Assembly: GCF_001729485.1 (NCBI RefSeq)
Contig: NZ_CP017157.1
Coordinates: 8,122,001 to 8,186,000 of the forward strand
From: Streptomyces lydicus
GTDB lineage: Bacteria; Actinomycetota; Actinomycetes; Streptomycetales; Streptomycetaceae
Length of the DNA stretch: 64,000 nt
Direction: 5' to 3'
Below, one piece after another: positions 19,622 through 19,757 of the stretch. Below the pieces are notes generated by a model, which had not been told where the DNA came from, searched no databases, and saw nothing but the letters and a program-made list of their open reading frames with translations. Every line of letters begins with the position of its first letter. Position 1 is the first letter of the stretch. Position numbers and translations under genes: made by a program.

Positions 19622-19757
19622 CAACTCCCTACGCCGGCATTACCCGGTAACAGGTTCGGCGGTCGACGCAGCGGCTTCCGTCCGCCGGTGTTTCACGTGA
19701 AACACCGCTGGGACGAAGGTCAGCGCCCTCTCAGCCCGGTGCTCCGAGCTCCCGCGA
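19622..19757 (-). promoter_or_regulatory. TPP riboswitch (THI element) of thiC
   Basis: Read on the minus strand, this leader has the TPP aptamer signatures in order: a stem GCUCGG/CCGGGC leading into CUGAGA (19729-19734), then, after a variable insertion, AACCUG and GGUAAUGCCGGCGUAGGGAG (19625-19644). The GGGAG at the 3' end of the aptamer (19625-19629) lies 10 bases before the thiC start and can be the Shine-Dalgarno sequence, so ligand binding could hide it (translational control, inferred). The variable insertion carries a parS palindrome at 19690-19703, flanked symmetrically to give a perfect 22-bp hairpin at 19686-19707. Confidence 0.92.
19690..19703. other. parS site 2 (exact), inside thiC TPP riboswitch
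   Basis: Exact GTTTCACGTGAAAC. The symmetry continues four bases on both sides (19686-19707), so in RNA it forms the stem of the facultative hairpin of the TPP aptamer. Confidence 0.95.

Follow-up and report, generated by a model that had tools for sequence, protein, structure and literature searches.

A parS sequence in the thiC TPP riboswitch of Streptomyces lydicus, at the tip of the optional P3a stem

An exact parS sequence caps the P3a stem of the thiC leader

We examined a 64,000-nucleotide stretch of the Streptomyces lydicus genome (NZ_CP017157.1, positions 8,122,001 to 8,186,000; hereafter the window, by which positions are numbered), focusing on a match to the chromosomal centromere site parS that lies inside the thiamine pyrophosphate (TPP) riboswitch of thiC. 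The thiC gene (17821-19614, minus strand) encodes a phosphomethylpyrimidine synthase of 597 amino acids (NCBIfam NF006763, 983 bits; TIGR00190, 704 bits), whose closest counterpart among the matches listed is ThiC of S. catenulae, at 93%. Upstream of the gene start at 19614, and on the same strand, the covariance model of the TPP riboswitch, RF00059, aligns over its full length (positions 1-105 of 105) to 19609-19765, with a score of 43.8 bits (E 1.5e-7) and with both the CUGAGA motif and the conserved 3' half included. The aptamer ends, on its 3' side, with AGGGAG (19625-19630, minus strand), 10 nt before the ATG; this is likely a ribosome-binding site predicted to be hidden by the aptamer, a mechanism that we presume to apply here.

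Within the P3a hairpin, 53 positions are unshown by the RF00059 alignment, and parS sits in that stretch. The alignment itself supplies the basal P3a helix, consisting of a 5' arm GGCGC (19723-19727, minus strand) and a 3' arm GCGTC (19665-19669, minus strand), the latter reading GCGCC in many of the related leaders that we parsed. In folds, the unshown stretch forms a distal stem with a perfect 22-bp palindrome at its tip. The arms of the distal stem, helix 1 of the covariation analysis below, are TTCGTCC on the 5' side (19711-19717, minus strand) and GGACGGAA on the 3' side, with one extra base (19676-19683, minus strand). The palindrome (19686-19707, no strand assigned), which is helix 2 and forms the apical P3a hairpin in the RNA, is paired in 97.1% of cells. 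It is made up of an exact GTTTCACGTGAAAC (19690-19703, no strand assigned), identified by pattern scan and which we take to be the parS consensus, together with four paired bases on each side. A preliminary description, made from the letters of the window alone, had placed an exact parS in a perfect 22-bp hairpin inside the thiC TPP aptamer, and this proved correct; the covariance model did not place the aptamer elsewhere. Three other TPP matches in this genome at E of at most 1 contain no parS, allowing up to one mismatch.

The site lies among parS sites close to dnaA and parB

At up to two mismatches, 14 parS-like sites occur in the window, where shuffles yield 0.08 on average. Genome-wide we found 40 exact and 6 one-mismatch sites and no match to the reversed pattern; the exact sites fall into two ranges of the 8201-kb contig, 15-253 kb and 8131-8197 kb. 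The dnaA gene occupies 208-2025 of the contig, and the sole ParB match lies at 8195459-8195989, 54 kb from thiC. Taking the two contig ends as adjoining, we infer that the parS at thiC belongs to an origin-proximal cluster with parB nearby. The sequence GTTTCACGTGAAAC is the consensus printed for Mycobacterium smegmatis in the available text of PMC7022226, where the S. coelicolor entry differs by one base.

The record thus begins at dnaA, and its parS clusters lie at both ends of an 8.2-Mb contig. In linear Streptomyces chromosomes, dnaA is usually central; its position at the start of this record therefore points to a circular chromosome or a rotated assembly.

Conservation of parS as DNA

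Conservation was read from 163 parsed thiC leaders, a non-random set composed of the window's own leader, 22 of 80 named loci (4 more were dropped after inspection and 54 left out), L101-L140 (all parS-like rows among the matches listed), L141-L180 (40 of the listed rows without parS), and L181-L240 (60 of 134 rows, also non-random, two parS-less rows included). The same species may appear twice among these rows, and 161 of the 163 inserts are distinct. The 64 remaining listed rows were scored separately, bringing the total to 227, and five rows starting inside double leaders (those with two parS-like copies) were left out.

Mismatches to parS are bimodal in these leaders. The best match in the parsed set has no mismatch in 22 leaders, one in 88, and five to nine in 53, and all 64 further rows have five to nine; across the 227, this amounts to 110 leaders at zero or one mismatch, 117 at five to nine, and none at two to four. 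The 88 one-mismatch cores draw on just four of the single changes possible: GTTTCACGTGGAAC in 62, GTTTCACATGAAAC in 17, GTTTCACGGGAAAC in 6, and GTTCCACGTGAAAC in 3. Of these, GTTTCACGTGGAAC and GTTCCACGTGAAAC are one sequence on opposite strands, carried at four other places in the S. lydicus genome. We looked for the two other one-mismatch forms, ATGAAAC and GGGAAAC, in 38 genomes and found them in 25 and 32, with no reversed matches; away from thiC they nearly always lie within about 60 kb of it, the exceptions being one site each in G088, G227, and G399.

By parsimony, the core of the 44 single-hairpin rows undergoes 0.5 changes per site and the four flanking bases to either side 4.1 (about 8-fold); in the 66 double rows the corresponding figures are 2.1 and 11.6. 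The unpaired loop bases of the parS hairpin are largely conserved as well, and the core U-A pair changes to U-G and never on to C-G, such that GTTCCACGTGGAAC is present in 0 of 163 inserts.

Pairing of the same bases in RNA

The flanks change in a manner that retains pairing. Among the 44 single-hairpin leaders, pair 15-32 is A-U, G-C, or C-G, and pair 16-31 is U-A, C-G, A-U, or, in a single case, U-G. When the structure is taken as a whole, single hairpins have 36 cells with both sides changed, whereas shuffles average 13.5 and 0 of 500 reach that count; no shuffle and no slid version attains the observed covariation score or share of paired cells. The five core parS pairs show no change on both sides. 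The distal P3a stem, which is separated from the palindrome by a loop, contributes 15 cells changed on both sides. In a test that takes kinship into account, the comparisons that show a difference mostly go in the expected direction (about 3 of 3 and 3.5 of 4 for the two pairs adjoining parS), which is not significant. The suggestion in the preliminary description that the same bases serve as parS by sequence and as an RNA stem is supported.

Double leaders provide a second view of the two constraints. In all six that were folded (L194, L191, L217, L220, L224, and L203), the copies pair with one another in one long hairpin. One parS within one mismatch is kept in double hairpins, and the other copy stands at two to seven mismatches in 55 of 66, with the parS copy defined as the better of the two, a choice favoring that copy. 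Copy-by-copy counts use 58 of the 66 double rows; the eight dropped have the better copy second (L220, L224), a second copy with more than five mismatches (L181, L200, L231, L237), or an insert that is too short (L230, L235). In the 58, the centre of the first copy is ACGT in 43, ACAT in 10, and ACGG in 5. ACGT is the centre of none of the second copies, yet the arms of these still pair with the first copy in 54-57 of the 58 rows, and we therefore read the pattern as one in which RNA pairing probably keeps the arms of the second copy while its parS centre is usually lost. Position 4 of the second copy is C in 20 of the 39 rows with G at position 11 of the first copy, and in 1 of the 19 with A there (57 rows; Fisher p 0.0009, uncorrected for kinship). 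In L220 (genome G187) the copies have swapped roles, the first having decayed to four mismatches and the second being a one-mismatch parS.

Two of the dropped rows carry additional fragments that resemble local duplications, namely a half-site before parS in L230 and GTGGAACG repeats after parS in L235.

Distribution in Streptomyces

Prevalence is taken only from a pattern survey of 392 genomes of the genus, taken to be Streptomyces from the named loci closest by ThiC, in which the aptamer motif GAGAGGNCGNTGA had to be followed, after 5-26 bases, by GTTYCACRKGRAAC. The pattern was matched in 189 of the 392 genomes, S. lydicus included, and its reversed form in none; the other 203 have no match in the thiC leader. 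Conservation of parS in this stem, for which the preliminary description had proposed an alignment of leaders, is borne out in many relatives. Among 200 genomes drawn from the family, a sample overlapping the set of 392, the pattern occurs in 35 of 63 Streptomyces and in 0 of 137 genomes of 16 other genera, which are not fully excluded by this result since the pattern requires this form of the aptamer core. The P3a loop itself varies between species: some leaders have next to nothing there (L036, L030, L040), some have an unrelated hairpin, and others have either a single parS hairpin or a pair of parS-like copies.

On a quick single-gene tree of thiC, in which 55 of 160 inner branches are open, presence and absence of parS require 6 changes against a shuffled mean of 44.9; one clade of 90 rows has parS in 90 of 90, and the window's clade in 14 of 15. 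Because so few changes are needed and presence is clade-wide, parS at thiC appears to be old and to have been gained or lost a handful of times.

We also compared positions across genomes, using gene calls from a simple composition script that are rough. Counted per site, with neighboring sites in one gap sharing a match, 38 of 45 S. lydicus parS sites have positional counterparts in G088 and 19 of 45 in G163, the thiC site in both. The idea that the thiC site is uniquely conserved in position was accordingly rejected.

Some other parS sites lie in palindromes downstream of genes

We defined an extended palindrome as a parS at no more than one mismatch with at least four perfect extra pairs on each side, and surveyed 45 of the 46 S. 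lydicus sites together with those of G163 and G088, picked for parS at thiC and long contigs. Extended palindromes account for 8 of 45 sites in S. lydicus (0.36 expected), 6 of 23 in G163 (0.18), and 10 of 33 in G088 (0.26), or 24 of 101 in the three genomes. By the same rough gene calls, a stop codon precedes 20 of these 24 by no more than 100 bp; put differently, 20 of 53 sites at most 100 bp after a stop codon are extended, against 4 of 48 elsewhere (Fisher p 0.0008). All 14 palindromes with at least seven extra pairs lie 8-69 bp after a stop codon. The other four extended palindromes are those at thiC in S. lydicus and in G088, a third located within a gene, and a fourth with 700 bp between it and a stop codon; the thiC parS of G163, in a double leader, has fewer than four extra pairs. 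Palindromic flanks as a peculiarity of thiC were rejected, with seven other sites of the S. lydicus genome extended by 4-15 bp. Hairpin tips may thus be a common home for parS, and the terminator-like cases suggest a general housing rule, not a device specific to thiC.

Interpretation and alternatives

We propose, at a probability of roughly 0.68, that the apical hairpin of the optional P3a stem in the thiC TPP riboswitch is a conserved and functional parS of the origin-proximal centromere. The data support two constraints on the same bases, one as a putative ParB site in DNA and the other as a hairpin in RNA. As DNA, the 14 bp would serve as a loading site for ParB and contribute to its origin-proximal complex, as the sequence, number, and position of the sites suggest. 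As RNA, the two half-sites would pair to form the tip of a stem for which folding is the sole requirement, and the comparative structure indicates that the aptamer core is untouched, such that TPP sensing would be unimpaired. Many different sequences are tolerated in the stem, which would allow a palindromic DNA site to establish itself there and persist. The preliminary description had already offered this tolerance as the reason for the placement; the variability of P3a between species agrees with the tolerance, and its role as the reason is plausible. The same logic could apply to other parS sites at the tips of terminator-like hairpins. A broader version is speculative and, in our estimation, unlikely: that much of the Streptomyces centromere resides in RNA hairpin tips (one riboswitch stem and many terminators) as a dual DNA and RNA code, with transcription that runs through or ends at such hairpins and ParB loading on the same bases affecting each other and coupling vitamin sensing to segregation at thiC.

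A number of results weigh against the proposal. The aptamer scores below the RF00059 gathering score of 54.3, and, because it does, a default Rfam scan of the window reported no TPP riboswitch. This cut-off is a matter of curation rather than a biological feature, and 17 of 18 thiC leaders tested in relatives fall under it, whether they bear parS or not: only L040 passes (57.5), L036, which likewise has a short P3a, scores 48.8, and the other 16 leaders range from 37.3 to 48.6. The folding energy of the leader does not improve on that of shuffles (z -0.93 and -0.92), and we set this measure aside as uninformative for leader structure; the lowest-energy folds fall short of the complete aptamer, yet the parS tip forms in both. 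In the covariation analysis, 5 pairs show change on both sides, which is no more than shuffles give (417 of 500 attain it), and sliding the partner by +1 and +2 raises this count to 8 and 7, respectively; 59 of 500 shuffles attain the further pair types; and the distal stem is paired in just 69.4% of cells. The kinship-aware test has 3-6 independent comparisons per position pair, none significant, and in the next two pairs and in the two-copy comparison about half or more of the comparisons are without difference. Among double rows, the second copy is also within one mismatch in 11 of 66, mostly in the ATGAAAC form, and L224, outside the 58, keeps ACGT in both copies. Lastly, half of the genus is without parS at thiC, so the site is dispensable.

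Three other explanations were weighed. The preliminary description had raised the further idea, possible in principle, that ParB controls thiC: ParB at the leader parS would slow or block RNA polymerase, or its spreading would tune thiC, for instance during sporulation. The location of parS inside the leader, whose extent we take from the aptamer, is in keeping with this, as are precedents from other bacteria. According to the accessible portion of the review PMC7022226, P. aeruginosa ParB represses genes at the intergenic sites parS3 and parS4, upstream of PA0011 and PA0013, and mild ParB overproduction brings wider silencing near parS1-4; the part of PMC4852455 at hand describes ParB complexes in S. 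venezuelae covering about 40 kb near oriC. The same portion of PMC7022226 also has B. subtilis ParB without effect on parS-adjacent genes. Against regulation stand the many species of the genus with the aptamer and without parS, and the preference of extended-palindrome parS for positions just downstream of genes, not leaders. Given these mixed published effects and the terminator cases, a ParB device specific to thiC is less favored, and a common home at hairpin tips further weakens it. ParB control of thiC is unneeded to explain the data, and we consider it unlikely.

The palindromic flanks could instead be a mutational by-product, in which template switching perfects quasi-palindromes with no selection on RNA and parS sits in a permissive loop. 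One template switch can alter both sides of a palindrome at once, and extended palindromes are common outside thiC too. However, these concentrate just after stop codons, as RNA terminators would, and the loop-separated distal stem has its own cells changed on both sides, though its pairing is incomplete; we regard this explanation as improbable.

That the hairpin is conserved for RNA alone, with the parS likeness incidental or a neutral relic, is very improbable: pairing alone could hold the arms, and parS is absent at thiC from half of the genus, but the gap at two to four mismatches, the largely conserved loop bases, the core U-A pair that stops at U-G, and second copies that usually lose the parS centre while their arms pair all argue against it, and chance placement of parS at thiC was rejected on this bimodality and on the excess of sites in the window.

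Relation to known systems

Conservation of parS in a leader stem joins two familiar elements. With the chromosomal parS of Streptomyces ParABS systems, the site shares the 14-bp palindrome and the occurrence of many copies near parB and the origin; it differs in that here one of the copies caps a riboswitch stem and others cap terminator-like hairpins. The available passages give 16 parS sites for S. venezuelae and 24 for S. coelicolor (PMC4852455), 17 for S. venezuelae (PMC12511625), and 21 for S. coelicolor (PMC7022226). As a TPP riboswitch (THI element), the thiC leader has the full-length model match, CUGAGA, the conserved 3' half, and the position upstream of thiC expected of the class, whereas its optional P3a is enlarged and carries a putative DNA-protein site. 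The P. aeruginosa sites parS3 and parS4 likewise lie upstream of a gene, but there, in the available part of PMC7022226, repression is experimental, while here the case comes from sequence and the site is within the leader RNA.

Although parS and TPP riboswitches are each well known, their combination may be new. In our literature search, judged mostly on titles and abstract openings with subscription journals largely outside, no paper described a parS within a riboswitch or at the tip of a terminator, which is weak evidence of novelty, and nothing was found on ParB occupancy or expression effects at thiC. We take SCO3928 to be the thiC of S. coelicolor. In the portion of PMC8120823 available, SCO3928 features merely as control DNA in a gel shift.

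The locus offers a natural case in which one short sequence is apparently held as both a DNA-protein site and an RNA stem, in a riboswitch of known fold, and natural controls exist within the same genus in leaders without parS, with a second, drifting copy, or with a copy swap. For palindromic chromosome sites in dense genomes, the locus suggests a simple rule, namely housing at hairpin tips, and it makes directly testable the question of whether RNA polymerase and a centromere protein disturb each other at a riboswitch.

Further parS hairpins and riboswitch annotation

Elsewhere in the window, two terminator-like hairpins carry parS at their tips, against 0.4 in shuffles. The first (37123-37154, minus strand; parS 37132-37145) has 14 pairs and a T-rich tail, and the second (37168-37205, minus strand; parS 37180-37193) has 17 pairs. 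This tandem of exact-parS hairpins has counterparts at 4496759 and 4496805 in G088 and at 5287179 in G163, the last with 20 extra pairs. The palindrome survey also identified a perfect 44-bp palindrome (60747-60790, no strand assigned) centred on parS 60762-60775, which a simple terminator scan did not call. This parS is the first of three at 60747-60851 between genes that are convergent by our rough calls, with counterparts at 5268898 and 5268938 in G163 and at 4470076 and 4470100 in G088.

Default annotation under-reports TPP riboswitches in the thiC leaders considered here, and does so even in L036 with its short P3a.
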